Assembly (NCBI GenBank): GCA_003671025.1
Contig: QWPW01000002.1
Coordinates: 1-46,295, forward strand
DNA length: 46,295 bases
Origin: Planctomycetota bacterium
Lineage (GTDB): Bacteria; Planctomycetota; Phycisphaerae; Phycisphaerales; SM1A02
Reading direction: 5' to 3'
The position numbers were made by a program, and so were the translations under genes. Position 1 is the first letter of the stretch. Each line of letters starts with the position of its first letter. Shown in pieces: positions 4,247 to 36,300 of this stretch. The notes under the pieces were generated by a model. It was not told the DNA's origin and did not search any database. It was given only the letters and a program-made list of their open reading frames with translations.

Positions 4247-4318
4247 GTGCGACTCGTTCGTCGTACTCGCCTCTCTCACCGCGCGGATCTGCGCGCTTCC
4301 TTGACTCACTCATTCCTT

Positions 4319-5917
4319 ATGTCGCTCATCTGTTGTCCCATCGCCGTTGAGGATCCTGCCGAAATTCCGTTGGCGCTTGATCGCGCCGCGCGCGCGCGAG
4401 TGCTCGGCGCACGCATGATCGAATGGCGTTGTGATGGACTTGCGTCGCATGACAACGCGCTCGCCGCCATCGCGCGATTGGTGCGTGAATGTCCGCTCGC
4501 ATCGTTGGTGACAATTCGCTCAAACGAAGAAGGCGGCACCTGCGCGTTAGCCGAGCATCAACGATTGGCGTTGCTCGGACGCATCATGCGCAGCGCCGAT
4601 GCGCCGCGACTTGTCGACATCGAACACGCATCGCTCTCCTCTGACTTGGCACGCACGCTGTTCTTGTCCACGATGACTCCGCGCGAAGGCGCCGTCGAGA
4701 ATGACGATGCGCCGATGACGCGCATCGTCGGCAGCACGCATGATTTCCTCAGTCGTCCCGTAGACCTCATGCGTCGCGTCGCGGCCATGCAAGAGGATCC
4801 GTTGATCAGCGTGGTCAAAGTGGTGTGGATGGCGCGCAGTGTGCGCGACAACCTCGAGGCGTTCGACATTTTGGCGGCGCGTGCCAAGCCCACCATCGCG
4901 CTGTTGATGGGCGAGTACGGATTGATGAGTCGCGTGCTTGCGCCGAAATTCGGCGGGTTTCTCACTTTCGCCAGCGATGCGGAAGGCACAGGCACCGCGC
5001 CAGGACAACCCACTGCGCGTGAACTGCGCGACCTCTATCGCTTCAACGACGTCGCGCCGGCCACGCGCGTGTTTGGTGTGATCGGTTGGCCGATCGCGCA
5101 CTCGCGCTCACCGGCGTTTCACAACGCGCGCTTTGCACAGGCGCAGTACGACGGCGTGTTCCTGCCCATTCTCGTACCGCCGGAGTGGGAGCACTTCAAG
5201 GCGACGCTCGGTGCGCTCATTGATCATGATCGACTTGATTTCGCGGGCGCGAGTGTGACCATTCCGCACAAGGAGCACCTGATTCGCTTCGTGCAAGAAC
5301 GCGGTGGAACTATCGATGATGGTGCGCTGTGGATCGGCGCGGCGAACACGCTCGTCGTTGCTGCGGGCGGAAAGTTGCGCGCGAGCAACACCGATATGCC
5401 TGCCGCAGTTGAGGTGCTCACCGCTGCGTTGGCCACGCGCGGACATGCGCCCGCCGCAACGCGCATCGCGGTGATCGGTGCGGGCGGCGTCGCGCGCGCA
5501 GTCGCCGGTGGACTTGCCGCACAAGGCGCGATTGTGGTGGTCTTCAATCGCAATCATGAGCGCGCGGAGCAACTCGCCGCGTCACTTTCTGGTCGCGAGG
5601 TTCAGCGTGCCGACGGATGTGTGGTCACCACCCGCGTGGTCGCGGGACGCTCCGAATCGCTTGGATGCGGCTGTTTTCATGCGTTTGTCAACTGCACGCC
5701 CATCGGAATGCAGGGCGGACCCGACCCCACAGGATCCCCGCTGCCCGACGACGTGCATCTCGATGACAGCGTCGTGGTCATGGACACCGTGTACACGCCG
5801 CGCGAGACGCCGCTGGTGCGCGAAGCGCGTGCGCGCGGCGCGATCGTCGTCGATGGCGAGGCGATGTTCGAACGACAAGCACAACTGCAAAGCGAACTCT
5901 TCCTCACCCGTTGGTGA
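4319..5917 (+). CDS. aroDE: Bifunctional 3-dehydroquinate dehydratase (type I)/shikimate dehydrogenase
   Basis: The 532-residue fusion carries out two consecutive shikimate-pathway steps, 3-dehydroquinate to 3-dehydroshikimate to shikimate. Residues 1-240 are a type I dehydroquinate dehydratase with TIRSNEEGG (Glu70/71), His141 in GSTHDF, the Schiff-base Lys167 in VVKVVWM and the APGQP loop at 227-231. Residues 250-532 are shikimate dehydrogenase: VIGWPIAHSRSP at 254-265, catalytic Lys318 in TIPHKE, Asp359 in SNTD, the NADP loop GAGGVARA at 387-394 and NCTPIGM at 458-464. Both active sites look intact. The same fusion is known from plants, chlamydiae and planctomycetes. The start at 4319 gives a domain-length N-terminus; an upstream in-frame extension is Arg-rich and unlikely. 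The next gene follows after 17 bp. Confidence 0.95.
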   Translation: MSLICCPIAVEDPAEIPLALDRAARARVLGARMIEWRCDGLASHDNALAAIARLVRECPLASLVTIRSNEEGGTCALAEHQRLALLGRIMRSADAPRLVDIEHASLSSDLARTLFLSTMTPREGAVENDDAPMTRIVGSTHDFLSRPVDLMRRVAAMQEDPLISVVKVVWMARSVRDNLEAFDILAARAKPTIALLMGEYGLMSRVLAPKFGGFLTFASDAEGTGTAPGQPTARELRDLYRFNDVAPATRVFGVIGWPIAHSRSPAFHNARFAQAQYDGVFLPILVPPEWEHFKATLGALIDHDRLDFAGASVTIPHKEHLIRFVQERGGTIDDGALWIGAANTLVVAAGGKLRASNTDMPAAVEVLTAALATRGHAPAATRIAVIGAGGVARAVAGGLAAQGAIVVVFNRNHERAEQLAASLSGREVQRADGCVVTTRVVAGRSESLGCGCFHAFVNCTPIGMQGGPDPTGSPLPDDVHLDDSVVVMDTVYTPRETPLVREARARGAIVVDGEAMFERQAQLQSELFLTRW

Positions 5918-5934: not shown

Positions 5935-6591
5935 ATGCCTGAAGTAAGTGCACCGGTCATCGAAGCGCGCGAATTCTTACGCGCTCATCTCAGCGGGTCG
6001 ATTGGCTTCGATGGCGACTTTGTTCCACTCAAAATCGTGGTCGCTCCCGATGGTGCGTTGATCGCGCCGGTGATGGTGGCGATGTTGCGCTCGTTCGACA
6101 TCACGTTGTTCTTGCCTGACGAAGGCGAAGACTCGATGCAACTGCAAGTCACCATCGAAGAGATCTTCGACAAGGGTGAAACCGCGGCGCTGTGCGATCG
6201 CTGGCGCATCTATCACGGCGAACCTGAAGATGTGCGTTGGGCGCGCTTCACGATTGACGCGGCGAAATTTCGCGGCCGCATGTTTGACGGCGCCGTGTTC
6301 ATGGTGGCCAATCCGCTCGCCGATTGCGAAGCGAAGATCTGTCGCGAGATCAACGCACAGCGGCGCGACACGCTCAAAGCCGTCGCGGCTTCCGTCGCCG
6401 GCCTCGAGATCGAAGACCCGCGTCTCGTAGGTGTTGATCCAATGGGTTTCGATGTACGCGGACGCTTCGATGTCGTGCGACTTCCCGCCGATCCACCGAT
6501 CGCCGATGAAGAGGACGCGTTCGCGGCACTCGATGATCTCGCAGGTGATGCCGATGAAGGCGATGCCGAGACCGACGCCGCAGAAAATTGA
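5935..6591 (+). CDS. HugZ/pyridoxamine-phosphate-oxidase-like protein with DUF2470-type end
   Basis: The 218-residue cytoplasmic protein has a split-barrel-like N-terminal half and a segment WRIYHGEPEDVRWARF that resembles the GDP.DF.lyR part of heme-utilisation (HugZ/HutZ) proteins. It is followed by a helical region and DPRLVGVDPMGFDVRG, which matches the end of DUF2470 domains (VDxxGFDL..). The usual HN.DHA histidines of DUF2470 are not visible (INAQRRDTL instead), so heme or flavin binding is uncertain. The last 30 residues are strongly acidic (Asp/Glu/Ala). The gene sits 17 bp after aroDE on the same strand and is likely co-transcribed. The assignment is by motif resemblance only. Confidence 0.5.
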   Translation: MPEVSAPVIEAREFLRAHLSGSIGFDGDFVPLKIVVAPDGALIAPVMVAMLRSFDITLFLPDEGEDSMQLQVTIEEIFDKGETAALCDRWRIYHGEPEDVRWARFTIDAAKFRGRMFDGAVFMVANPLADCEAKICREINAQRRDTLKAVAASVAGLEIEDPRLVGVDPMGFDVRGRFDVVRLPADPPIADEEDAFAALDDLAGDADEGDAETDAAEN

Positions 6592-6761
6592 GTCTTCTGC
6601 AAAACGCGCGCATTCCGCAGCAATTCGTCGCTGAATCTCTCCAACTCGTCACATGATGAAGCTGCGACTCAGATGCTTCCTCTCACCAATGCTGTGGCTT
6701 GCGCGACAGACTCATGGTTAGAATCAGAGCCGCTGCTTGTGCGGCAGAAATGAGAAAACGC

Positions 6762-7646
6762 ATGGCTCTCACCGAAGGCGACAAGAAATACGCTGGCAGT
6801 CTCAACAGCGCGATGATCGACGGACCGGAAGGTCGCGCGGCGCAGGAATACGCCAATCACTTCGGCGAAGCAGGCTTTGCGGACATCACCAAGGTCTACA
6901 TCGAGCAGCACTACCAAGGCTATAGCGAAGAGAACCAAACCAGTTGGCGCACGCTCTATGACCAGCAGATGGCGTATCTCACCACGCACGCATCGAGCGT
7001 GTATCTCAGCGGAGCGCGCTCGATCAATCTCGTGCGCGATCACATCCCCTATCTCCAAGGGCCGCAGAGCGTCAATCACTTCTTGCAGAAACTCACCGGT
7101 TGGCAGAGTCGCGCAGTGCCGGGATACCTTCCGGCCAAGACGTTTTTCGCGTGTCTAGCACGACGTGAATTCCCCACCACAGTGGTCATTCGTCCCAAAG
7201 AGTCGCTGCACTATCTGCCTGAGCCCGACATCTTTCACGACATCTTCGGACACGTGCCGCTGCATGCGGATCCAGTGTTTGCGGATTTCTTGCAGACCTA
7301 CGGCAGAGCCGCGTTGCTCACCAACGACCCCTATCACACCGAGCGTCTCGCGCGCCTCTTCTGGTTCACCGTGGAATTTGGGCTCATTCGCGAAGAGGGT
7401 CAAATCAAACTCTATGGCTCGGGACTCATTTCCAGTCCCGGCGAATCGGTGCATGCACTCAACAGCAGTGAAGTCGAGCGGCGACCGTTTGATCTCGACA
7501 CGGTGTGCAACACCAGCTTTGAGATCGACCACTATCAACCGATTCTCTACGTGCTCGAGAGCTTCCAGCAGTTGCGTGATGCGATGAACAGTTACGCGAA
7601 CCGACTCATCGAAGAAGCTGAACGCGCCCCCGCCGCTTCACGCTGA
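6762..7646 (+). CDS. phhA: Phenylalanine 4-hydroxylase (pterin-dependent)
   Basis: The 294-residue enzyme converts phenylalanine to tyrosine using O2, non-heme Fe(II) and a tetrahydropterin. The family core is clear: LPEPDIFHDIFGHVPLH with iron ligands His159 and His164, the third ligand Glu205 in WFTVEFGL, and YGSGLISSPGE at 218-228. Length matches monomeric bacterial enzymes without a regulatory ACT domain. The start at 6762 is preceded by GAGAAAA. Another ATG at 6750 would add four residues. It is the last gene of the aroDE direction, 170 bp after the HugZ-like gene, so it may have its own promoter. Co-location with aroDE suggests a route from shikimate through Phe to Tyr in this locus. 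Confidence 0.94.
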   Translation: MALTEGDKKYAGSLNSAMIDGPEGRAAQEYANHFGEAGFADITKVYIEQHYQGYSEENQTSWRTLYDQQMAYLTTHASSVYLSGARSINLVRDHIPYLQGPQSVNHFLQKLTGWQSRAVPGYLPAKTFFACLARREFPTTVVIRPKESLHYLPEPDIFHDIFGHVPLHADPVFADFLQTYGRAALLTNDPYHTERLARLFWFTVEFGLIREEGQIKLYGSGLISSPGESVHALNSSEVERRPFDLDTVCNTSFEIDHYQPILYVLESFQQLRDAMNSYANRLIEEAERAPAASR

Positions 7647-7768
7647 GCGATGCAGCACAATTGATTTGCACGCGCGCGCTGCGACCACCCATGTCGTGCG
7701 CGCGCGTTGCGTTGGTGGCTGACTCCGCGCCACAACGTTCATCCTTCGCAAAGCATCGACGCAAAAAC

Positions 7769-7802
7769 ACCGCGCGCCGACGGTGTTCCATCGGCGCGCG
7801 GT
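7769..7802 (+). repeat. Perfect 12-bp inverted repeat (hairpin)
   Basis: The arms ACCGCGCGCCGA and TCGGCGCGCGGT are fully complementary with a 10-nt loop. It lies 120 bp after the phenylalanine hydroxylase stop. The following bases AAGAGAGG are not U-rich, so it is a strong stem but not a standard intrinsic terminator. Confidence 0.8.
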
Positions 7803-8047
7803 AAGAGAGGAGAGATGAAGAGCCTGTCCTGTCCTGTCGTCTTCTTCCGCGGTCGCCGTCCCGAGCAGCCGCGGTGTTCTCGTCACAATTGAAAACGCAA
7901 GCCATCGCGTATCTGTTCACCGCCTTTCGCGAATTCTCGAAAATTGTTTCGCATCACGAGGCTGGAGTAAACCCTGCGTCCCAAGCTGCGTATCAACGGC
8001 AGGCGCGGTTTGTTCGCGCGCCTGCTTGACCCCCACACCCCCTTCCT

Positions 8048-8086
8048 ACAGGCTCTGCGAGTAGTTCGCGGAGCCTGTTCCTTTTG
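8048..8086 (+). terminator. Intrinsic terminator-like hairpin
   Basis: Arms at 8048-8060 and 8066-8078 pair over 13 bp with one G-U, enclose a 5-nt loop (GTAGT) and are followed by TCCTTTTG. It would end transcripts coming from the left, either the phenylalanine hydroxylase message or a small RNA in 7.8-8.05 kb. Confidence 0.65.
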
Positions 8087-8102
8087 ATCGTGTCGGCGGT
8101 CG

Positions 8103-8235
8103 CACTCCAAAAAACGAACAACCCGCGGCATCCTGCCACGGGTTTGCTCGATTTCCGGCGGCGACTGAAGGACTCAGTTACGCGCGCGCAGACAGGATTC
8201 CACTGCTCACTTGACGGCCGAAGTTCGCGGGATTG
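8103..8235. repeat. Direct repeat, left copy (133 bp identical to 12418-12550)
   Basis: This stretch is base-for-base identical to 12418-12550 (offset 4315). It contains the terminator and the last coding bases, stop included, of the EF-hand gene found in full at 12493-13380. Beyond 8235 the two copies diverge abruptly and realign only after a 59-bp gap. Confidence 0.95.
8107..8145 (-). terminator. Intrinsic terminator, duplicated copy
   Basis: This is the exact copy of the EF-hand gene terminator at 12422-12460: a 10-bp stem with one G-U, a 5-nt loop and a T-rich tail on the minus strand. Here it follows only the gene remnant. Confidence 0.8.
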
Positions 8236-8330
8236 GCCAGCATGTGCAGTGATCCGCGCGGACACGCCGAGCAACGGTTGAGGAAACTGATCGCGAAAGT
8301 GGTCGAAGTCGACCATGAGCACCTTTGGTC
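8178..8330 (-). pseudogene. Remnant of the EF-hand gene 3' end
   Basis: Read on the minus strand, this piece starts like residues 228-241 of the intact EF-hand protein (a LMVDFDHFRDQFP segment). It then lacks 59 bp, which breaks the frame, and ends with the same last residues (HML.NPANFGRQVSSGILSARA, one substitution) and the same stop. The part nearest the stop is identical to the intact gene, while the part further upstream has several substitutions. Nothing resembling the five EF-hand loops is present upstream. It is a dead duplicate. Confidence 0.85.
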
Positions 8331-8434
8331 GCGCGTGCTCCTTCGAGCAAACTGAACTCCGCCGATCGGCCCTATCCGCTGCGTGCGGCAATTGCCGATT
8401 GCGCGGTGCAATTTGTTGATGTAGACTCAAACGC

Positions 8435-9808
8435 ATGAGCGTTACGTATCGCCTCGCACTTTGGATCGGCGCGCTCGGAACGCCTAACGCAAGCGGGATC
8501 CTCACTTACCCGATCCTCACCAACCAACACACGGCCCCACTCCGCGCCGTCGCTGAGGAAGAGAATCCCGTCACCTACTACCGCATGGTTGTTCCGCGCG
8601 TCTTACAAGACGATTGGCTGCGGGCGGCGGAAGCACTCGGAGCAAGCGCGCCCAAAACCGAAGACGTCATCAAGGCCGTGAACGAGTACGACCAAGCACT
8701 GGAGAAAATCTCCAGCGATATCGGGCAGTTCTGTGCGGAGCGACGACTCAAGGAGCAATTGGCAGAGATCGCGGCGGGCGGCGGCGCTCCTATCGCGGCT
8801 GTCTCAATTGCTCGCGATTGTTTTGACCGACTCAAGAGTCGGAGTTGGCCCGAAGCTGACAACGCGATCGAAGAGACGTGGCGTCGGCTCACCGCCAATA
8901 TCGATCCGCAAGACGCCATCGCCGTTGCTCGCGCCGACCGCGCGCAAGCGACATTTCTTCGTGGGGTCTATCTACGCCAGGTCGCGAACCCCGATGGTTG
9001 GAGTAACACCGGAGAAGGAGTGGATCTTCGGGACCTTCTTGTGAACCGGGTTGCTCGGCACGCGGTGTCAAAGGAGTTCGCCGGTGTCGCCGCGCTGCTC
9101 GCTGGAACGGCGTCGCCTTCGGAAGATCCCCGCGTCGCTGCGGGCGCGGCGGAAGTTGAACGGATCGTCGCCGAGTATGAAGCACATTCGTTCAATCTCG
9201 TCAGAGATTACTTTCGTGCCTACAGGGCGAATGCTGCAAAGCTACCCACCCAAAAGGAAGATCCGCGAGCGTTTTCTGAATCAAGACACAAACGGAGCAT
9301 CGACGCCGCTCGACTGGTGAGTGGTCATCTGTTCGAGGCGATTGATCAAGTCTCCACTGCGCTGGCTCAACATGTAGGGATCGAGGCGCAGGGTGATTGG
9401 GAAGACGTAGCGTGGGCCGCTGTGTTTCCGATGCTGGTCCAGCCCGAGCTTCCGACGCGCGCATTCGGTTGGATCGAGTCCAGCCAACCCCCCGCCGATA
9501 CTCTGGTCGCGTGCCGCAACATCTACAGCCGCTATTTAGAGAGCCGCGTCCCGCTGCGCAAGCAAATGATCGAGGCACTGATCGAGGCCAAACGGACAAG
9601 CGCGATTCCTCTCGGCGCTGAGTCGAGGAAATCGCAAGAACTCGAAACTCGCATGGCGAGTCTCTTGGCGAGTCGTCAAGCGCTGTCGACCGCCGCCGTC
9701 GATGAGCTGCGGGCGACCCTTGATGCCAAGACCAGTGCCGAGCTTGAGAAGTTCCTCAGCGCCGTTTCACGGCAATGGGATCCCGCGCGAAAGTGGAAAA
9801 ATCTTTAA
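8435..9808 (+). CDS. Uncharacterised helical protein, first gene of the island
   Basis: The 457-residue product is not recognised. Residues 7-15 (LALWIGALG) are hydrophobic and followed by a Thr/Pro/Asn stretch, so a weak signal peptide is possible. The rest is predicted to be mostly alpha-helical, rich in Ala, Glu and Arg, with few cysteines and no nucleotide-binding or metal motif that can be seen. A Trp-containing stretch near 345-365 (GDWEDVAWAAVFP, then AFGWIESSQ) may mark a conserved core. The stop is followed after 13 bp by the next start, which has its own GAGGT, so the genes form one transcription unit. Confidence 0.75.
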   Translation: MSVTYRLALWIGALGTPNASGILTYPILTNQHTAPLRAVAEEENPVTYYRMVVPRVLQDDWLRAAEALGASAPKTEDVIKAVNEYDQALEKISSDIGQFCAERRLKEQLAEIAAGGGAPIAAVSIARDCFDRLKSRSWPEADNAIEETWRRLTANIDPQDAIAVARADRAQATFLRGVYLRQVANPDGWSNTGEGVDLRDLLVNRVARHAVSKEFAGVAALLAGTASPSEDPRVAAGAAEVERIVAEYEAHSFNLVRDYFRAYRANAAKLPTQKEDPRAFSESRHKRSIDAARLVSGHLFEAIDQVSTALAQHVGIEAQGDWEDVAWAAVFPMLVQPELPTRAFGWIESSQPPADTLVACRNIYSRYLESRVPLRKQMIEALIEAKRTSAIPLGAESRKSQELETRMASLLASRQALSTAAVDELRATLDAKTSAELEKFLSAVSRQWDPARKWKNL

Positions 9809-9821
9809 CCGAGGTCATTGC

Positions 9822-10217
9822 ATGAATCGCATCAGTCGCATGTTGTCCGCTGGAGCCAAGACATCCGTCCCTGTTGGCGTCGCCGCCTTGACTATGTTCG
9901 CGGAACGACCGTCGGGAGGCCAGGTGGTGTATGACTGGCGGCCGTATCACGACTGCGTCGTGTCTGGCAAGTGCTTGGCCTCGAACACGGTTTGCGCAGG
10001 GCCTGCAGTTGCGGGCAAACCGTGCCGCTTTTGCGGCAACCCGCTGACTATCTACGAATGCGAGTTCTCGATCTTCCAGAACTGCTACGAGCTTGTGTTG
10101 ACTCCGTCGAGCTTCGACTGCGGTCAAATGTACGTAGGAGTGTGCAGCCCCACGGGAATGTTTTGTGTCTCAGGGGTGGCCAACGGCCGCACCTGTCCGC
10201 GCCCGGACTGTTACTGA
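9822..10217 (+). CDS. Small exported cysteine-rich protein
   Basis: The 131-residue product starts with MNRISRMLSAGAK and a hydrophobic run to about residue 26, consistent with a signal peptide. The remaining roughly 100 residues contain 12 cysteines in spaced pairs (DC/KC, VC, PC..C, EC, NC, DC, VC, FC, TC, DC), as in a disulfide-stabilised extracellular or periplasmic protein, and end in PRPDCY. No enzyme motif is seen. The start is fixed by GAGGT six bases upstream of ATG 9822. Its partner genes on either side are the helical protein and the DUF1573-like membrane protein, which suggests a joint role at the cell surface. Family unknown. Confidence 0.75.
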   Translation: MNRISRMLSAGAKTSVPVGVAALTMFAERPSGGQVVYDWRPYHDCVVSGKCLASNTVCAGPAVAGKPCRFCGNPLTIYECEFSIFQNCYELVLTPSSFDCGQMYVGVCSPTGMFCVSGVANGRTCPRPDCY

Positions 10218-10300
10218 ACCCAGGTTGGGTCGTTGAAACAGAATGGGTTGGGAGTCGTGCGCCTACACCTCAAGTGAGAGCTTGCAATCGGAGTCCTCAA

Positions 10301-12271
10301 ATGCGCAGCGCGATGTTTCTCAGGTTTATGACGAACCTGCCCCTCATGTTGGTCGCGAACCTGCCCCTCATGTTGGTCGCGACCCTGCCCCCCGCAGTGT
10401 GCGCAAGCGCTCCGCCAATGCTTCCAGCGACCGAGGCACAGCGGGAGCGGCTCTGCCACTCGCTTCAAGAGGCCATGGCGCGCGTCGACCTCGACGCAAC
10501 TTGGTCGATCAGACTTGAGTTTGGCGAGACCGCACGCACAGCGCTTCAACAGGAAGCGCAAACGGGCACGGTTCGAATCGTCGCGCTTGGCGACCGCATG
10601 TGGGCCTCGGTCCACTGGGATCGGCTTGGATCAATGCCGGGATCGGACAAAGAGATGGTGGTGCGCGGCGACGATCTGCCAATTCTCACGCGCGATGGTT
10701 CAAACGGCGCGTTCTCCACCAGCATCGCGGACTTTCCCAATCTTGGAATTGTGGGCGAGGATCTGCCCATCCTTGCGCAATGGTTCCGACGCAGCCCCTC
10801 AGTTGCGTTCGAGACCCTGCCCCAAGCCATTCTTGCCTACCCATCGGAGGCCGTGGAGTTCCAGGTCAACGGCCAGGTGCTGCTCCGTGTGCTCTCGCTT
10901 GTCGGAGCGGCATCCGATTTTGATTCGGTGCTGGTACTCGAGGGGGAGCCAACCTTGAGACTTGCCGCCATGCGTTTGCTTCCGAGTCAACCCGGCAAAC
11001 CCGCTGGCGAAGATGCTGTGGCCAATGGCGGTGAGGCGCAGGTTTCGTCTTGGGTTCGAATCGGCGAGAGCAACGTTCCAGCGCGCCTTGAGCGCACCAA
11101 CTATGCGTGGTTCCCACACCAAGAGAAACAAGATATCCAGAGGACGATTTATGAGCTGGTGTCAAGCGGTCCTGCGAGTTCGGATCCGATTCGACTCGCC
11201 GATCTTGCGGAGTGGACTGCAACCAACTCCACGGTGGCCGACGACCGAGTTGGTGTCGTGAGTCGCATCGGCGATGACACATTGAGTCTCGGCGGAACGA
11301 GGCATCGACTGAGGCGCCCCCTCCGCTCCGAGGATGTGCTCGGCAAGGAGCTGCTCACCTCGCTTTGTGTGGGCGAGGAGATCGCGCCGACCCCAATCAG
11401 AATCACCGATGCCGCGTCTCAAGCCGTCGCGGAAGGCGAATCAGATGTGGCAGAAGCGCCGTGGCGGATGAAAACCAGTTGGATTGCGCCGATTGTCGGT
11501 GTCCTGCTCTGGAGCGGCGCGCTTCTCGTCTTGCGTCGTCGTCGGACCGATTCAACCAAGAGAAACTCTGTGGTGCCACGCCTCGCGGCTGCGGCTGGTC
11601 TCGCGCTCATCGTTGGTAGCGCGGCGTATTCCATTTGGCAGCGGGATGCTGCGCTCGAATCGGGGCGGCTCTACGACTTGGGAACCGTCGTCATCGCGGA
11701 GGGAACCGGCCTCGCAGACGGGGCCGTCGAGTTCACTGCGCACGCGGACCACGAGCGAAACGTCGTGGCGTTGCAGCCTTCCTGTGCGTGCCTGAAGGCT
11801 CAACTGTCGAGGACGCGCATTGCGAAAGGCGAGCGACTTGTGGTGCCGGTCAGTCTCAGCCTCTCCTCAAGCGGTGAGAAGCAAGCCTTCCTGACCGCAG
11901 TCTTCGACGACGGCGAGCATGAGGTCGTACATGTGCGCGCCACCGGAGTCATAGGAGCGAGTGACCGCAGACCGCGCGTGAGTTCGATGCTGACGTTTCT
12001 CCCCAACCACTCGGAGGCGTCGATCACCGTGTTGCTTCCATATCCGAGAATGCCGGCGCCCGCGATTGATTGGCGACTGCCGCCCGAGGTGACTGTCAGC
12101 ACCCTGCGTACGCGATACCTCGTTCCCCTGCAAGAAAGAGACGAGGGTCAGTGGGAAGTGACGACCACCTTTGCTCGTGATGATGCTCAGAGCCGTGCGC
12201 TGATTGGTACCGCGGTGATGGAGGTGGACGGTGCGCAGGTCGCCGCTGCCATGATGGTTGGCATTCGTTGA
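10301..12271 (+). CDS. Membrane protein with exported N-terminal domain and DUF1573-like C-terminal domain
   Basis: The 656-residue product has a signal sequence (to about residue 38, ending AVCASA), a roughly 350-residue exported domain rich in beta-type sequence (possibly LolA-like, weak), two membrane segments (about 394-414 and 426-446, separated by RRRR), and a C-terminal domain from about 457. The last part reads YDLGTVV, then QPSCACLK, then a beta-rich stretch, the pattern of DUF1573 (DFG.v, sCGC) with CAC in place of CGC. Both large domains would face the periplasm. The signal peptide contains a perfect 24-bp tandem duplication. ATG 10301 was chosen because everything upstream in frame overlaps the Cys-rich gene; ATG 10313 is an alternative. 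Confidence 0.7.
   Translation: MRSAMFLRFMTNLPLMLVANLPLMLVATLPPAVCASAPPMLPATEAQRERLCHSLQEAMARVDLDATWSIRLEFGETARTALQQEAQTGTVRIVALGDRMWASVHWDRLGSMPGSDKEMVVRGDDLPILTRDGSNGAFSTSIADFPNLGIVGEDLPILAQWFRRSPSVAFETLPQAILAYPSEAVEFQVNGQVLLRVLSLVGAASDFDSVLVLEGEPTLRLAAMRLLPSQPGKPAGEDAVANGGEAQVSSWVRIGESNVPARLERTNYAWFPHQEKQDIQRTIYELVSSGPASSDPIRLADLAEWTATNSTVADDRVGVVSRIGDDTLSLGGTRHRLRRPLRSEDVLGKELLTSLCVGEEIAPTPIRITDAASQAVAEGESDVAEAPWRMKTSWIAPIVGVLLWSGALLVLRRRRTDSTKRNSVVPRLAAAAGLALIVGSAAYSIWQRDAALESGRLYDLGTVVIAEGTGLADGAVEFTAHADHERNVVALQPSCACLKAQLSRTRIAKGERLVVPVSLSLSSSGEKQAFLTAVFDDGEHEVVHVRATGVIGASDRRPRVSSMLTFLPNHSEASITVLLPYPRMPAPAIDWRLPPEVTVSTLRTRYLVPLQERDEGQWEVTTTFARDDAQSRALIGTAVMEVDGAQVAAAMMVGIR
10334..10381 (+). 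repeat. 24-bp tandem duplication inside a signal peptide
   Basis: Two perfect adjacent copies encode NLPLMLVA twice in the hydrophobic core of the signal sequence. The length is a multiple of three, so the frame is kept and the core is simply lengthened. Confidence 0.95.
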
Positions 12272-12417
12272 GTGCAGACGGGCAGAGCGGCGAGACGAGA
12301 AGCAATTGAGGAGCGCGGCTTTTCCCTCTTGGCGCGCCGCGCCTGCTTTCGCGTAGACGCGTGGACTTCGCCGCGTGGATCTGCGCGGCATCAAAGAGCC
12401 GCATGCGCTAACGCCAT

Positions 12418-12550
12418 CACTCCAAAAAACGAACAACCCGCGGCATCCTGCCACGGGTTTGCTCGATTTCCGGCGGCGACTGAAGGACTCAGTTACGCGC
12501 GCGCAGACAGGATTCCACTGCTCACTTGACGGCCGAAGTTCGCGGGATTG
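12418..12550. repeat. Direct repeat, right copy (133 bp identical to 8103-8235)
   Basis: This copy belongs to the intact EF-hand gene: it holds the final codons and stop (12493) plus the terminator at 12422-12460. It begins 146 bp after the stop of the DUF1573-like gene; that 146-bp gap holds one 7-bp GC hairpin (12313-12342) and nothing else recognisable. Confidence 0.95.
12422..12460 (-). terminator. Intrinsic terminator of the EF-hand gene
   Basis: On the minus strand a 10-bp stem (AACCCGTGGC with GCCGCGGGTT, one G-U pair) encloses AGGAT and is followed by GTTCGTTTTTTG. It lies 33 bp after the EF-hand gene stop. Confidence 0.9.
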
Positions 12551-13380
12551 CTCAGCATGTGCTGGATGCGCGCGAAGGCTGCGGTGTCTGGCGTCGGTCG
12601 CATTCCCGAGAACGCGTCGCCCCATCGGCGCGCGAACGCGCTGGGCGATGCTTCAGGAAACTGATCGCGAAAGTGATTGAAGTCGACCATGAGCGCTTTG
12701 GTCATCTCTTCGCGGCCAACCTTGCCGCTGCCATCGAGATCGAGTCGCTCGAAGATCTTGCTGCCGTGATGGAAGTCAGATGCGATCACTGATCCATCTT
12801 GATCGGCATCGCGTGAAGCGAAGGCTGATTCGACGAGTCCTTCCACCAACTTTAGCGGTGAAGGAGTCGCGCCGCCCGCAGGGAGTGACTGTCCGTTCAG
12901 CATCGTGGCGAGATCTTGCGCGTTGACCGAACCGTTGCCGTCTTGATCGCCGCCGGTCGCATTCGACCACGCAGCGTTAGCGGCGGCATCGCCCTGACCG
13001 CTAAGTGCTTGCGCGAGATCTTGCGCGTCAATCGTGCCATCTCCGTTGAGGTCAGAAGCACCGCCCTGTCCCCAATTTCCGAGGACCGATCCCGTGCCCG
13101 AGTTCTGTTGACTTGAGGCCAGCGAAAGATCAGAGGCATCGACGATGCCGTCGACGTTGAGGTCGGCGAGAGGATTCGACGTTCCCCAATGCGCGAGCAC
13201 CGTCGCAACATCGACTTGCTGCTGCGCGGGTCCGCCGAGGATTCCGCTTGCTTGCGATGTCGTCTCGGACGGGGTGGTGGCGGTTGCAGGCGCGAAGGGA
13301 AGTTGTGCGTTCGCCGCCGGCTGAGGATGTTTGATCGCGCGCATGGGCGCGGCGTGAAGAGATGAACCGTTGATTTGCAT
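12493..13380 (-). CDS. Protein with five EF-hand calcium-binding loops
   Basis: The 295-residue protein has five canonical 12-residue loops: 73-84 (DLNVDGIVDASD), 110-121, 145-156, 191-202 and 214-225 (DLDGSGKVGREE). The first three are spaced like dockerin-type repeats (VLAHWG and VLGNWG precede loops 1 and 2); the last two form an EF-hand pair. The C-terminal 60 residues (FNHFRDQFP to ILSARA) are of unknown function. Residues 1-50 are Pro/Ala/Thr-rich, with no signal peptide or membrane segment. The start is fixed by AAAGGAG at 13388-13394, seven bases upstream. Calcium binding is likely, but the partner is unknown. Its 3' end is duplicated at 8.1-8.33 kb. Confidence 0.9.
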   Translation of the reverse strand: MQINGSSLHAAPMRAIKHPQPAANAQLPFAPATATTPSETTSQASGILGGPAQQQVDVATVLAHWGTSNPLADLNVDGIVDASDLSLASSQQNSGTGSVLGNWGQGGASDLNGDGTIDAQDLAQALSGQGDAAANAAWSNATGGDQDGNGSVNAQDLATMLNGQSLPAGGATPSPLKLVEGLVESAFASRDADQDGSVIASDFHHGSKIFERLDLDGSGKVGREEMTKALMVDFNHFRDQFPEASPSAFARRWGDAFSGMRPTPDTAAFARIQHMLSNPANFGRQVSSGILSARA

Positions 13381-13387
13381 GAGAGAG

Positions 13388-13394
13388 CTCCTTT
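13388..13394 (-). promoter_or_regulatory. Strong ribosome binding site deciding the EF-hand start
   Basis: AAAGGAG on the minus strand lies 7 bases before ATG 13380. It rules out a start 15 codons upstream at 13425. Confidence 0.85.
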
Positions 13395-13687
13395 GGGCAA
13401 ACGGGCACGGATTGCGGCACACCATGCCGCGTGCTCACCTCATGCAATGGGTGTGCCTCTCGATGTGACTTCGTTGCAGCGGTCGCGTGCGTGATTTACG
13501 CGGCCTTATTGATGCGTTGCACAGCGCCGTGATCAACACGGTGTTCAGCGCGGTGTTCAGCGCATGCACCGAGGCAAACGCAAACGCGCGGCAATGACGC
13601 GTGGGGCGCGAGAATTGCGCCATCGCGTTTTGACGGGGGATTCACGCAGCGATTGTCTCGGTGGCGCGCGCGTCAGCCCCGACGCAT
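13395..13687. other. Gap between the EF-hand gene and rlmE
   Basis: About 290 bp without a credible gene. It should hold the promoter of the EF-hand gene, but no confident -35/-10 pair is seen. A 12-bp unit (CGGTGTTCAGCG) occurs twice in tandem at 13539-13562. Confidence 0.6.
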
Positions 13688-13729
13688 CAGTCCCAACCCT
13701 TCAGTCCCAACCCTTCAGTCCCAACCTTT
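13688..13729. repeat. Three tandem 14-bp units spanning the rlmE stop codon
   Basis: Units at 13688-13701, 13702-13715 and 13716-13729 (the third has one change). On the minus strand each contains GGTTGGGACTGA, so the last three codons and the stop of rlmE (Gly-Trp-Asp-stop) are present three times, linked by AG. The first one read ends the protein. Confidence 0.93.
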
Positions 13730-14365
13730 GGAACGCTTGCGCTTAGGCAACAACGCATCCTCGACCGTTTGCGCGCGTCCGTCGTTGCCGCGAAAACCGT
13801 GGCAAATCACGAACATCTCGACACTCTCGGCACGCGACGCGCGCGGCTTGTAGCCCTTCGCTTCGTCGAACATGCGCGTCGAGCGCTTGAGCACCTCGGG
13901 GTATTCGGCGCCTTCGAAGATCTTCATGACGAGGTTGCCGCCGACACGCAGCCACAACGCGGCGCGATCGAGCAATTCGTGACACAAGCGCGCGGAACGA
14001 AACCCATCGCCCATCGGGTCACCCGTGGTGTCGGGAGCCATGTCCGAAAGAATGACATCGAAAGGATGTCCGCCCAATTCGTTCAACTCAAGATCACGCA
14101 GATCCGCTTGCAACAAGTGCACGTTGGGCGGATAGCCGCCAGGGTTGATGAGTTTGAGATCGACGGCGACGACTTCGCCCTTGGGTCCCACGCGCGTGGC
14201 CGCAACCTGCGACCAACTGCCGGGCGCTGCACCCGCATCAAGCACTCGATTTCCTCGACGAATCACGCGACTGCGATCATCGATGTGAATCAGCTTGTAG
14301 GCCGCGCGTGAGCGATAGCCCTCTTCTTTGGCGAGACGAAACCAGTGGTCTTGAACTTCCTTCAC
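13715..14365 (-). CDS. rlmE: 23S rRNA (uridine-2'-O-)-methyltransferase, RlmE/FtsJ family
   Basis: The 216-residue enzyme transfers a methyl group from S-adenosylmethionine to a uridine ribose in the peptidyl-transferase region of 23S rRNA. The SAM site is DAGAAPGSWSQ (43-53). The catalytic set is Lys24 (RSRAAYKL), Asp108 (SDMAP), Lys148 (VMKIFEG) and probably Glu183 (SRAESVEMF). Length matches E. coli RlmE (209). The start is GTG at 14365, where the family N-terminus (WF.lAKeeGYRSRAAYKL) begins. The C-terminal KRKRSKGWD tail ends in the 14-bp repeat array. The 87 bp to the next gene upstream show no feature. Confidence 0.94.
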   Translation of the reverse strand: MKEVQDHWFRLAKEEGYRSRAAYKLIHIDDRSRVIRRGNRVLDAGAAPGSWSQVAATRVGPKGEVVAVDLKLINPGGYPPNVHLLQADLRDLELNELGGHPFDVILSDMAPDTTGDPMGDGFRSARLCHELLDRAALWLRVGGNLVMKIFEGAEYPEVLKRSTRMFDEAKGYKPRASRAESVEMFVICHGFRGNDGRAQTVEDALLPKRKRSKGWD

Positions 14366-14452
14366 GACGAGACTGTACCGCGCGCGCGCGTCTGAGGATC
14401 CGTTGCCAACGTCATCGCGTCATAGGTTGCGCATGAGGACATCGTGATCAAC

Positions 14453-15343
14453 TCACGGATCGACAATCACAAATCCAACGTCGGTGGGATTGGGCACGAT
14501 GGCGACGCGGATACGTTTTTCGCTTGTGCGCAGGATGACGGGATTCGTGCCTTGATTGAGCACGGCGACGAAATGATCGTGATCGTTGGTGGGGTCAAGC
14601 GCAAGCCAGTGGCCGAATTCGCAGCGTTGACGGACTTCGCCGCCGAAAGACTCGCAATCAAACGCGCCCTTCGATTCACCGCGCACGCGATAGTCAATCG
14701 TGCCATCGCTGGTGACAATCGTCATCGCATCGATCATCGGCCACGGCGTCATCATGCGCACATCGCCGCGACTGGTCTCGATGTCGACCGCGCCTTGGTT
14801 TTCGATCACGGTGACATCGCCCTTGGTGGTGCGCACCTTCACTGTGTCGAGTGCGGGCGTGACCACCAGGATTTCCATGTGATGAAAGTACTCTTCAGAG
14901 TTCGGTGTATCCGTGCGAATCACCAGCGTTTCGCCGCCGCCCGCGCGTGGTTGCAACGACGCGGTCCACTGCGCATCGTCGAGTGCTTCGCGCGATTCGG
15001 CCCAACGACCCAATCCATGCGTCGAGACGCGACGAACTTCAACCACCGTGCGTTCCACTTTGCGATCAGCGCGCACCACGACATCGCCGGCGAAGTTGTC
15101 GATGTCCACCGCAACTGATCCCGTGGTCGTGAGCTCGAGTGGCTCGTCGGTGGTGAACGTGTGCGCCATCGCCGCGTCGGTCACCGCTTCTGTCGTGGAG
15201 AGAATTTGGTCCTCGAGATTGCGGTGCGGTGAGCACGCACTCATCGTCAGGAGCGCGCTCGCGGCAAGACCCACCGCGACAGTCGCGGGCGCAAGCAAAC
15301 GTGCGGAAGAAGGGATGGGGGTATGAGGGCAGTGATTCGTCAT
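14453..15343 (-). CDS. DUF4097-like lipoprotein
   Basis: The 296-residue product has a lipoprotein signal: hydrophobic residues 18-33, then MSAC with Cys37. The mature part starts helical, then shows repeating short beta strands (VDIDNFAGDVVV, VKVRTTKGDVTV, VDIETSRGDVRM, MTIVTSDGTIDY), the pattern of DUF4097-type beta-helical putative adhesins. It is probably an envelope protein attached by lipid; the function is not known. The start at 15343 (ATG) was preferred over one 22 codons upstream because it places the lipobox normally. It is transcribed divergently from the esterase gene, leaving about 150 bp for both promoters. Confidence 0.75.
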   Translation of the reverse strand: MTNHCPHTPIPSSARLLAPATVAVGLAASALLTMSACSPHRNLEDQILSTTEAVTDAAMAHTFTTDEPLELTTTGSVAVDIDNFAGDVVVRADRKVERTVVEVRRVSTHGLGRWAESREALDDAQWTASLQPRAGGGETLVIRTDTPNSEEYFHHMEILVVTPALDTVKVRTTKGDVTVIENQGAVDIETSRGDVRMMTPWPMIDAMTIVTSDGTIDYRVRGESKGAFDCESFGGEVRQRCEFGHWLALDPTNDHDHFVAVLNQGTNPVILRTSEKRIRVAIVPNPTDVGFVIVDP

Positions 15344-19885: not shown

Positions 19886-22627
19886 ATGCTGCACACGCTC
19901 ACCACTGCACTTCGTCCCATCGCGTCGTTCACCGCGTCCTTCACTGTTGGCGCCATGCTCCCCCTCTCTGCGCCACTCGTGCTCGCCGTTGTGACTGCGA
20001 TACCGATGCTGTGCGCGAGCAACGCCTCCGCGCAGTCCAATCAAATGCCAACGCCGGCCACTGCGGCGCAACTCGAGGAGTTGCTCAAAGCGGTCGGACT
20101 CACAGGTAGCGCGCGCGATTCGGCGCTGCGTCTTCACGAAGAATATTTCGCGTCGTTCCGCGAGTTCGAAGAGCGCGAAGTCGCGCAAGCGCTTGAGTCA
20201 ATGAAGAAGGGCGACTTCGACATCGGAATCACCTCCGATGAAGCGGACCGCGACACCGGCATCAGGCGTCGACTCTTGCAACGCGCCGCACAGATCGATT
20301 CGCAGTATGTCGACTCGCTCATCGGAACACTCAACAGCGACGACGCGTTGCGCGCAGAGAAACTACGCAGTGCGCTTTCGCGTCGACGCAGCGGCGCGTT
20401 CTTGCGCAACTTTGGACTAGGCGGCCGCTCGTCGCAGTTTGATTTGCGCGCGGCTCCGATCTTCGCTTCGCTCGAGGCGTCAAACCAAACACTCATCGCG
20501 CCAACCTTTGATTCCTACGACGCAGAACTCACGCGTCTATGGGAGCGCTTCGCCGAAGCGTCGCTCGCGCGTGCCGCGAAAGTGGCTCGACTGCGCGAAG
20601 AAGCGGGCATTGGCGCAACTCCCATCAGCGACGCGGAAGCGGCCGTTGCGGAAGGAGCCGCGGCCGAGGGCGTGCTCCCTGCCGTGGATGAATGGTTCGC
20701 CAAAATGAGCGCGATTCGCAGCGAAGCGGGCAAGGATTCCGCCGAAGCCACCAAGCGTATTCGCCGACTGCACCGCGACACGCTGATGCAAATCGAGCCA
20801 TTGCTCAGCGCCGATGTTGCGGCTGGAGTGCGCAGCTATCTCGTGAACACGCTCTATCCCACGCTGTTTACCAAAAGCGATTTCAACGCGACGCTCGAGA
20901 TCGCGCAGCGCAAACGCGATGCGAAAGAAATCGATGACTCGACGTGGAGTGCCGTCGAAGGAATCATCGAGGCGCATCGCTCCTCCGCGCGCGGGCTCAT
21001 CGAGTCGGTGATGGACGCGGCGGACGCATTGAAGAGCGCGGCGCCCGCGGAAGACAACATGATCTTCTTTTCGGGCAGTGATGATTCCAACCAGCCTGAT
21101 TCCAGCGTGCAAGATGCGCGTCTCGAGGAGTGGCGCATGGTCGACACGCGCGACGCCGATGCGTTGCGTGCTGCGATCGGCATGGGTGTGCGAGAAATCG
21201 CGCCACAAACTGCAAGCGCATTGAGCGGACGCGGACTGCCCGAGGGCATGGATGTTCAGATCGGCGAAGCCATCGGCGGACTGATGGGCGAGGCGATGGG
21301 TGAAGCCATGGGCGGCGCCAGCATGGTGGTGATGGGCAGTAACGGTGAAGCAACGCTGATCTCAGGGGAAGACCTCGCGGATTCGGGAATGATGTTTTTT
21401 GGCGGCCCAAACTCGGCATCGCGCTTGCCTCGTCCGATGGATCGCGATGCCCTCGAGTACCTCGCGCAATGCGCGAATGTCGACGCCGATGCGCGTGCCG
21501 CGTTTGACGCAATCGTCGGCGAATGCACGGACGCGCGCGCGAAGGCGGCGGAACTCGTCCCATCGCCGCAGCAAGAAATCACCAGTTCCGACGGCTCGTT
21601 TTCGATCTCAATTTCGTTGGACGGAGAGAACCCTGAGCCTGCCATCTCGGACGATGTTGCTCGCGCGACCGAGATGATCGCGACCGCTGAAGATGTGATG
21701 TTCGATTCGATCAAGGCGCTCGCCGATACCTCGCATGCCGAGTGCGTCGAGGGCGCGCGACGCGTGCGTGCGCGCGAACGATTGACCAACGGTGAGCGCG
21801 GAGCATCGACGGTTGACTTGGTGGTCATCGCGCGCAACGCCGCACTCTCGGCGCAAACGCGATTGGCTATCGCTTCCGATCTCGACGCGTGGGATCTCGC
21901 CTCGGTGAATGCCCTGCGATCGATGCGCGCAGAGATCAACGCGGGCTCCAACGAGCGCGCTGCGATCCTCAAGCAAGCGACCAAGCACACTGATGTCAGC
22001 GGCGATGGCACGAACGTGAGCCACTCCACATCGATCGAAATGGGTGACGACCTCAGCCGACGCATGATGGCCGCCGACCGCCGCATCGAGAAGGCGCGCG
22101 AAGCAGTGGCCACGGTCAACAAGTCTGCCGCGAAACAATTGGTCGAGAGCGCTGCCATCGATCCGCACTCGCAAACCGTGTTGCGCCGCGCGATCAATCG
22201 CGCGCTCTTCACCACGATCTATGCCGCCAAGCCCACGCTTGACGGCGTGTTCACCAAGGCGAAGACGATCCTCGCGGAGGACGCGGCGATGACTGAGGTC
22301 CTCGCGGCGCTGCAAGCGGAGTGGACTGAATCACGCGAAGTGCGCTGCGACCTCGCCGTCGAAGAAAGCATCGCTGCGCAGATCGCGCGTGATGCGCAAG
22401 CAAAGCCAGCCGACGATCAACCGTTCGCCGGAATGGGCGGCATGCAAGAGCGCACGCGCGAACGCAAGCAAATTCGTGGCGATCTCGATCAGATCGACGC
22501 GACCATGTTCCATCGCGTGGTCGATCTGGTCACCGGTGCTGTGGGCGCCGAGAAAGCCAAGGAATTAGGCGAGCTGCCCACGGCGAAGAAGTCGCGCGCG
22601 CCGATGACGATTCAACTTGGTGGCTAG
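19886..22627 (+). CDS. Large exported, mostly helical protein of unknown function
   Basis: The 913-residue product starts with a long signal peptide (to about residue 49, ending SNASAQ). The mature protein is predicted to be largely alpha-helical, rich in Ala, Glu, Arg and Asp, with many charged repeats and probable coiled-coil stretches (about 60-400 and 590-880). A Gly/Met-rich segment lies in the middle (GGLMGEAMGEAMGG, about 471-484). It has no transmembrane segment after the signal and no recognised enzyme motif. It stands alone on the plus strand, and its TAG stop is the first codon of a 28-bp tandem repeat array. Confidence 0.75.
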   Translation: MLHTLTTALRPIASFTASFTVGAMLPLSAPLVLAVVTAIPMLCASNASAQSNQMPTPATAAQLEELLKAVGLTGSARDSALRLHEEYFASFREFEEREVAQALESMKKGDFDIGITSDEADRDTGIRRRLLQRAAQIDSQYVDSLIGTLNSDDALRAEKLRSALSRRRSGAFLRNFGLGGRSSQFDLRAAPIFASLEASNQTLIAPTFDSYDAELTRLWERFAEASLARAAKVARLREEAGIGATPISDAEAAVAEGAAAEGVLPAVDEWFAKMSAIRSEAGKDSAEATKRIRRLHRDTLMQIEPLLSADVAAGVRSYLVNTLYPTLFTKSDFNATLEIAQRKRDAKEIDDSTWSAVEGIIEAHRSSARGLIESVMDAADALKSAAPAEDNMIFFSGSDDSNQPDSSVQDARLEEWRMVDTRDADALRAAIGMGVREIAPQTASALSGRGLPEGMDVQIGEAIGGLMGEAMGEAMGGASMVVMGSNGEATLISGEDLADSGMMFFGGPNSASRLPRPMDRDALEYLAQCANVDADARAAFDAIVGECTDARAKAAELVPSPQQEITSSDGSFSISISLDGENPEPAISDDVARATEMIATAEDVMFDSIKALADTSHAECVEGARRVRARERLTNGERGASTVDLVVIARNAALSAQTRLAIASDLDAWDLASVNALRSMRAEINAGSNERAAILKQATKHTDVSGDGTNVSHSTSIEMGDDLSRRMMAADRRIEKAREAVATVNKSAAKQLVESAAIDPHSQTVLRRAINRALFTTIYAAKPTLDGVFTKAKTILAEDAAMTEVLAALQAEWTESREVRCDLAVEESIAAQIARDAQAKPADDQPFAGMGGMQERTRERKQIRGDLDQIDATMFHRVVDLVTGAVGAEKAKELGELPTAKKSRAPMTIQLGG

Positions 22628-22708
22628 CGAGCGAGCGAGCGGCTTAATTTTTGAGCGAGCGAGCGAGCGGCTTGGTTTTTGAGCGAGCGAGCGAGCGGCT
22701 TAATTTTT
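22625..22708 (+). repeat. Three tandem 28-bp units starting at a stop codon
   Basis: Units at 22625-22652, 22653-22680 and 22681-22708, then a partial fourth. Each is a run of GAGC tetramers followed by GGCTTAATTTTT (GGCTTGGTTTTT in the second). The first unit begins with the TAG of the preceding gene. The T tracts follow no self-complementary arm, so these are not normal terminators. There are no spacers, so this is not CRISPR. Confidence 0.95.
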
Positions 22709-22724
22709 GAGCGAGCAGACAAAA

Positions 22725-36048: not shown

Positions 36049-36300
36049 CGATCGAAACTGAGCGCGCGCAGCGACCTCGTGCGATGCGCTCATCACGAAT
36101 TCGTTCGCGTCGCCGCGTGAGAATTTCGCGGCATCGTGTTGTTTACCTGCGCATCAAACTCAACCGTGCGCGTCCGATCGACACTGAGCGCGCGCAGCGA
36201 CCTCGTGCGATGCGCTCATCACGAATTCGTTCGCGTCGCCGCGTGAGAATTTCGGGGCATCGTGTTGTTTACCGGCGCATCAAACTCAACCGTGCGCGTC
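36049..36300. repeat. Two tandem 126-bp units covering the radA 3' end
   Basis: 36049-36174 and 36175-36300 are adjacent direct copies with three mismatches. The right copy contains the last 27 codons of radA and its stop; the left copy holds a nearly identical extra tail plus stop in the downstream region. The unit is 42 codons, a multiple of three. Confidence 0.95.

Follow-up and report, generated by a model that had tools for sequence, protein, structure and literature searches.

In a 46,295-nucleotide stretch of DNA from an uncultured Planctomycetota bacterium (hereafter, the window), three co-directional genes stand between the intact 3′ end of an EF-hand/dockerin-type gene and a second, displaced copy of the same gene end. 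The explanation that we favor, and judge moderately probable, is that an acquired cassette was inserted through recombination, with about 290 bp of its target becoming duplicated, after which the left copy of the target decayed and 133 bp of it were homogenized. The features on which this reading draws are the following:

6699-7646, plus strand: aromatic amino acid hydroxylase gene (Biopterin_H), the last of the left conserved block (Pfam, synteny)
7759-7918, minus strand: conserved intergenic element with a terminator hairpin at 7803-7768, the ancestral downstream flank (nhmmer, DNA match)
8103-8235, no strand assigned: left copy of the 133-bp repeat, a displaced EF-hand gene end and terminator
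8236-8336, minus strand: what is left, after decay and the loss of 59 bases, of the adjoining stretch of the EF-hand gene
8435-9808, plus strand: gene 1, 457 aa, all-helical in its model and, by eye, perhaps exported
9822-10217, plus strand: gene 2, 131 aa, cysteine-rich, with 12 cysteines invariant in four homologues
10301-12271, plus strand: gene 3, 656 aa, predicted to contain two long helices, its C-terminal region resembling DUF1573
12272-12417, no strand assigned: spacer from gene 3 to the right copy, matching only its own-place loci among 183 loci
12418-12550, no strand assigned: right copy of the 133-bp repeat, the true gene end and terminator, with a hairpin at 12459-12435
12493-13425, minus strand: intact EF-hand/dockerin-type gene (Pfam, orthologues in relatives)
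13715-14365, minus strand: FtsJ-like methyltransferase gene, the anchor of the right conserved block (synteny)

The borders of the block are formed by a direct repeat whose two copies, 8103-8235 and 12418-12550, agree in 133 of 133 bases, the preceding base being different (G/T). The right copy carries the final 18 codons, the stop codon and the terminator of the EF-hand gene, and the same 18 codons recur unchanged in the left copy. Past the 133 bp, 8236-8336 resembles 12551-12705 (including a 71-nt stretch at 83% identity), and the spacing of the copies shifts from 4315 to 4374, corresponding to a loss of 59 bases from the left copy, such that the duplicated target amounts to about 290 bp in total, of which 133 are identical. 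The alignment of the left and right flanks scores 289, whereas 200 shuffles in two-base blocks reach at most 33. Outside the identical core, 15 of 96 aligned bases are substituted and small gaps occur; the substitutions in the left remnant fall on codon positions 1, 2 and 3 in the numbers 5, 8 and 2, a pattern that does not look like protein-level selection. At the divergence of the adjoining stretch (12 of 71), zero differences over 133 bases have a probability of about 2e-11, and the step in identity at 8235 is thus real. An earlier note, made from the letters of the window alone, had described an exact 133-bp repeat around three co-directional genes, with the true EF-hand 3′ end and terminator on the right, a deleted and diverged version of it on the left, and a boundary of recombination or gene conversion at 8235: All four descriptions hold, the last as a probable boundary of homogenization.

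Because the identical core abuts a decayed remnant, the repeat seems to combine two ages, an old duplication and what would be a recent homogenization. Another way to obtain a damaged edge beside an intact one is error-prone repair in a single recent event. In the 449 kb that were searched of the window's own genome (G000, a 3.25-Mb draft in 68 contigs), this is the only direct repeat of at least 50 bases whose copies lie more than 1 kb apart at more than 90% identity; one further pair in the sample reaches 83% identity. That such repeats are a general habit of this genome was rejected, as none were seen in the 449-kb sample, and a dispersed-repeat origin of the terminator hairpin was rejected as well, because its pattern in G000 is confined to the two copies. 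In this hairpin (8144-8120 and 12459-12435, minus strand), the stem and most of the loop, which is of the CCCGYGGCAGGATGCCGCGGG type, are kept in relatives, and the hairpin is apparently better conserved than the DNA surrounding it.

Elsewhere in the window, 36049-36300 contains a 126-base tandem duplication at 98% identity, and 22626-22716 consists of tandem 28-base units with AGCGAGCGAGCG, with a 35-base match in three copies.

The comparison with 15 genomes of the same genus shows which DNA is ancestral at this locus. A clear EF-hand orthologue is present in 12 of them (E 4.1e-25 or better), the matches in the other three (G007, G010 and G015) being weak, at 6.8e-7 to 4e-6. As it does in the window, the EF-hand gene adjoins the FtsJ-type gene in 11 of the 12, and the contig of the twelfth begins within the EF-hand gene itself. 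On its 3′ side, relatives have a terminator of the same kind, followed by an intergenic element that ends in a hairpin, beyond which lies, in G013, a convergent aminotransferase gene. A first motif picked out this downstream element in eight of the 12 relatives but hit wrongly in G013, and a looser pattern was found in 11 of 12, including rows for G005 and G013 that look misplaced but were kept; G006 is absent from the looser pattern, yet its element is visible by eye. A profile built from this looser pattern, with relatives only, has a sole match in the window, at 7918-7759 on the minus strand (nhmmer E 5.9e-11), and no second match in the 449-kb genome sample. In addition, the stretch 3′ of the EF-hand gene in G001 matches the left flank in the window directly (88%, E 2e-10).

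Since this ancestral downstream element adjoins its left side, the left copy is the original gene end, now displaced, and the new DNA is therefore that from about 8336 to 12418. Neither gene 1 nor gene 2 occurs in any of the 15 same-genus relatives, and no cassette gene has a match in 19 stretches around their EF-hand and hydroxylase genes; gene 3 matches weakly in G013 and has a distant homologue elsewhere in G008, in a stretch that shows no gene 1 and no gene 2. These results agree with the earlier note in placing an insertion where the EF-hand gene ends and in treating the left copy as a gene end that was moved away and is decaying, and this copy does sit beside the ancestral flank at 7759-7918; a situation in which all relatives carry the same genes at this place, with no second gene end, did not occur among the 12 EF-hand-bearing genomes. 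A second, separate break in synteny lies at 7646-7759, because the hydroxylase belongs to another conserved block: The hydroxylase and EF-hand blocks are on separate contigs in relatives, and the two genes were not seen side by side in the relatives' stretches examined.

The intergenic element at 7918-7759 (minus strand) combines a strong terminator hairpin with both a GGGACGGC motif and a CTCTCCTCTCT stretch, and it is possibly a small RNA. Rfam returned no match at the element, and one match, far under its cut-off, over 6500-14500.

Outside the genus, the cassette recurs. Gene 2 is present in seven of 181 genomes of the family, and a profile search recovered gene 1 in 19 of 400 genomes of the order (own genome included in both counts), 18 of the 19 belonging to the same family and most matches being partial. 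Four genomes of the family, G000, G063, G066 and G047, have the complete set with its gene order kept, with identities to the window for genes 1, 2 and 3 of 46, 56 and 46% in G063, 36, 42 and 31% in G066, and 27, 29 and 28% in G047. Around the latter three cassettes, the neighboring genes of the window have two weak matches in all. There are 17 further gene 1 matches, and among the 11 whose neighbors were checked, G114 has gene 1 with gene 3, one locus in G108 has gene 1 with weak versions of genes 2 and 3, and nine have gene 1 alone, some of them on short contigs that possibly cut off its neighbors. The three genes are a real module that is scattered unevenly among genomes. Of the 25 genes in the window, the two whose codon scores are most atypical are genes 1 and 3; the codon score of gene 2 is ordinary, as is the G+C content of the block (0.608 vs. 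0.606). The patchy distribution of the cassette, together with the atypical codon scores, favors horizontal gain, and we infer that the cassette was acquired in this manner. The phage, plasmid and viral searches that were run found no donor.

A likely second insertion comes from G047, a draft of about 100 contigs. There, the cassette and a remnant of an ISL3 transposase lie between a putative DUF1501 gene (contig C48) and a putative DUF418 gene (contig C4), and in three sister genomes from its genus (G062, G063 and G064) these two genes adjoin with no insert, forming an empty site. Contig C4 opens with 127 bases equal to its own 5672-5798, the start of the DUF418 gene, and C48 closes with 137 bases equal to 5489-5625 of C4, the end of the DUF1501 gene. 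The repeat is thus read from contig ends, the left copy not being assembled in one piece, and the overlaps of 127 and 137 bases are close to a typical assembler k-mer length; the simplest reading is a single 310-bp duplicated target stretch around the insert that collapsed in assembly. Flanking repeats occur at two of the six cassette loci compared (G000 and G047, not G063, G066, G114 or G108), with one cassette side in G066 offering only 838 bases, beyond which a repeat would be missed. Two loci of six are suggestive of a shared mechanism, short of proof. Next to the right-hand edge of the cassette in G047, 5250-5420 of locus L082 (G047:C4) contains locally repeated sequence, and the adjoining DNA has short matches on further contigs of this genome.

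The earlier note had reported no visible integrase, and this is borne out: Pfam and NCBIfam detected neither a recombinase family among the three ORFs nor a transposase in the block. Eight weak inverted pairs of at least 14 bases occur in 8300-12450, none of which links the ends, and transposition with a short target duplication was rejected given the lack of terminal inverted repeats and a duplication of about 290 bp. End joining by Ku was rejected because neither G000 nor G047 yielded a Ku gene, both being drafts in which a gene can be missed; among the seven genomes searched, only G114 has it, and the control search matched one of 14 genomes, Bacillus subtilis. Because the block has no recombinase, no inverted repeats link its ends and Ku was not found, homologous or homology-assisted recombination is the likeliest mechanism.

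Under the favored explanation, three genes for envelope or exported proteins would have been acquired horizontally as a cassette and joined to the EF-hand gene at its 3′ end. In the recombination, about 290 bp of target DNA, comprising gene end and terminator, would have become doubled: The intact gene would have kept one copy on the right, and the other, displaced, would have remained on the left next to the ancestral downstream flank. Decay of this left copy would have followed, by the deletion and by substitutions that mostly change amino acids; recently, RecA-type gene conversion would probably have restored its identity with the functional gene end over 133 bp. A single crossover or homology-assisted illegitimate recombination would be the likely route: If the incoming DNA held the cassette and about 290 bp of gene-end-like sequence, one crossover would yield the observed order.

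Several known processes offer partial parallels. Homology-facilitated illegitimate recombination adds foreign DNA by means of one-sided homology and could, by analogy, have added the cassette. Integrase-type islands insert at the 3′ ends of genes, keep the gene intact and have direct repeats at their borders, and an att-type core is expected to stop sharply on both sides. Like such islands, the window has an intact EF-hand gene at one border and a displaced end at the other; unlike them, its block has no integrase, and the repeat grades into decayed homology up to about 8336. Two papers (PMC3967940, PMC3848433) describe orphan gene ends at rhs and tpsA/tpsC loci, where a truncated end beyond other ORFs is homologous to its intact neighbor, can recombine with the main gene, and carries a different C-terminal domain and an immunity gene. 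Set against these loci, the window is similar in that 8103-8336 is a truncated end homologous to the neighboring full gene (12418-12705), but its final 18 codons are identical and the gene is of the EF-hand/dockerin type. Pfam, NCBIfam and padloc searches of the block yielded no family of toxins or immunity proteins. For the flexible genomic islands of aquatic bacteria, one paper (PMC4033161) proposes exchange by homologous recombination, with islands swapping for one another between common flanks; unlike those islands, the cassette in the window was added and its target duplicated. The literature searched contains no description of the three-gene cassette, leaving these systems as analogies alone.

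An alternative order of events, which we regard as unlikely though credible, is that the EF-hand gene or its end was first duplicated in tandem, that one copy decayed, and that the cassette later landed in this decaying copy or took its place, making its arrival and the repeat separate events. The resulting anatomy would be identical, and the 5/8/2 substitutions in the remnant outside the 133 bp resemble unconstrained decay. However, the loci of the 12 relatives have no second EF-hand copy at this place, and the similar borders in G047 would need a coincidence.

It is distinctly doubtful that the arrangement reflects an assembly effect or a mixed population, in which a chromosome without the insert (running from left flank through repeat to EF-hand gene) coexists with a 4,315-bp circle or tandem array carrying the remnant, the three genes and one repeat. 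Both sides of the block are on a single 149-kb contig, the left copy is no simple duplicated read path since it differs from the right copy past 133 bp, no plasmid or viral contig matched, and the complete cassettes of G063 and G066 stand among other genes without such a repeat. In favor of such an effect are the draft state of G000, with its 68 contigs, a repeat length near the limits of short reads, and the fact that the repeat edges in G047 fall at contig ends; in graph form, the assembly data are also compatible with an empty chromosome plus the circle. A related idea, which is more speculative still and which we hold to be improbable, is that the cassette represents an integrase-free mobile class that duplicates a target of about 300 bp and is excisable as a circle via the repeats; if true, such a class would explain the repeat-cassette-repeat topology shared by drafts from two genera. 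Finally, site-specific integration of an element that supplies a replacement gene end, its integrase being lost or acting in trans, would account for insertion at a gene 3′ end, a restored gene and a direct repeat at both borders, but this route, one form of the gene-end integration that the earlier note had offered, is very improbable and not supported, because the block has no integrase or other recombinase ORF and similarity runs past the core on the gene side, unlike in an attL/attR pair, and because the target in G047 is a different gene pair. Taken as a whole, the observation in the earlier note is confirmed and its interpretation is supported in part.

The insertion favored here would have brought in three proteins whose features hint at the cell envelope, with export signals judged by eye alone, and with starts of genes 2 and 3 that are our choice (the ORF list begins at earlier start codons). 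The window's gene 1 protein belongs to no Pfam or NCBIfam family, and its homologues give Pfam matches at chance level. It is modeled as all-helical (mean pLDDT 71), and its last ~110 residues have CnrX, a metal sensor, as their nearest fold (Z 11.1, rmsd 2.2, 110 aligned); six CnrX entries head the fold list and the next row has Z 8.6, at scores where, for helical bundles below Z 13, likeness can be coincidence. Foldseek gives only E 2.8 for CnrX. In the model, the C-terminal part of gene 1 appears CnrX-like. Gene 3 is modeled with low confidence (pLDDT 54) as having two long helices, which may cross the membrane. Its match to DUF1573 in Pfam scores 18.6 bits against a cut-off of 26.1; the G047 homologue, at 27.3, lies above the cut-off, and the G063 homologue has no match. 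A sequence search of the PDB with gene 3 returned nothing at E up to 1. The DNA encoding its N-terminal, signal-peptide-like part (10329-10390) shows, by eye, a tandem 24-base unit. From folds and sequence features, our guess would be that the three proteins form a periplasmic sensing unit or a chaperone-like or folding unit. A defense system was rejected, padloc yielding a single weak match to BrxC (E 0.017).

Many environmental genomes gain small gene blocks that have no visible mobility gene. Here, the insertion scar can be read in order, from ancestral flank to displaced gene end, insert and intact gene, and a related cassette was likely inserted a second time at another place; a readable scar and a likely second case make this mode of gain testable. 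Cumulatively, the analysis brings to light a recurring three-gene cassette.
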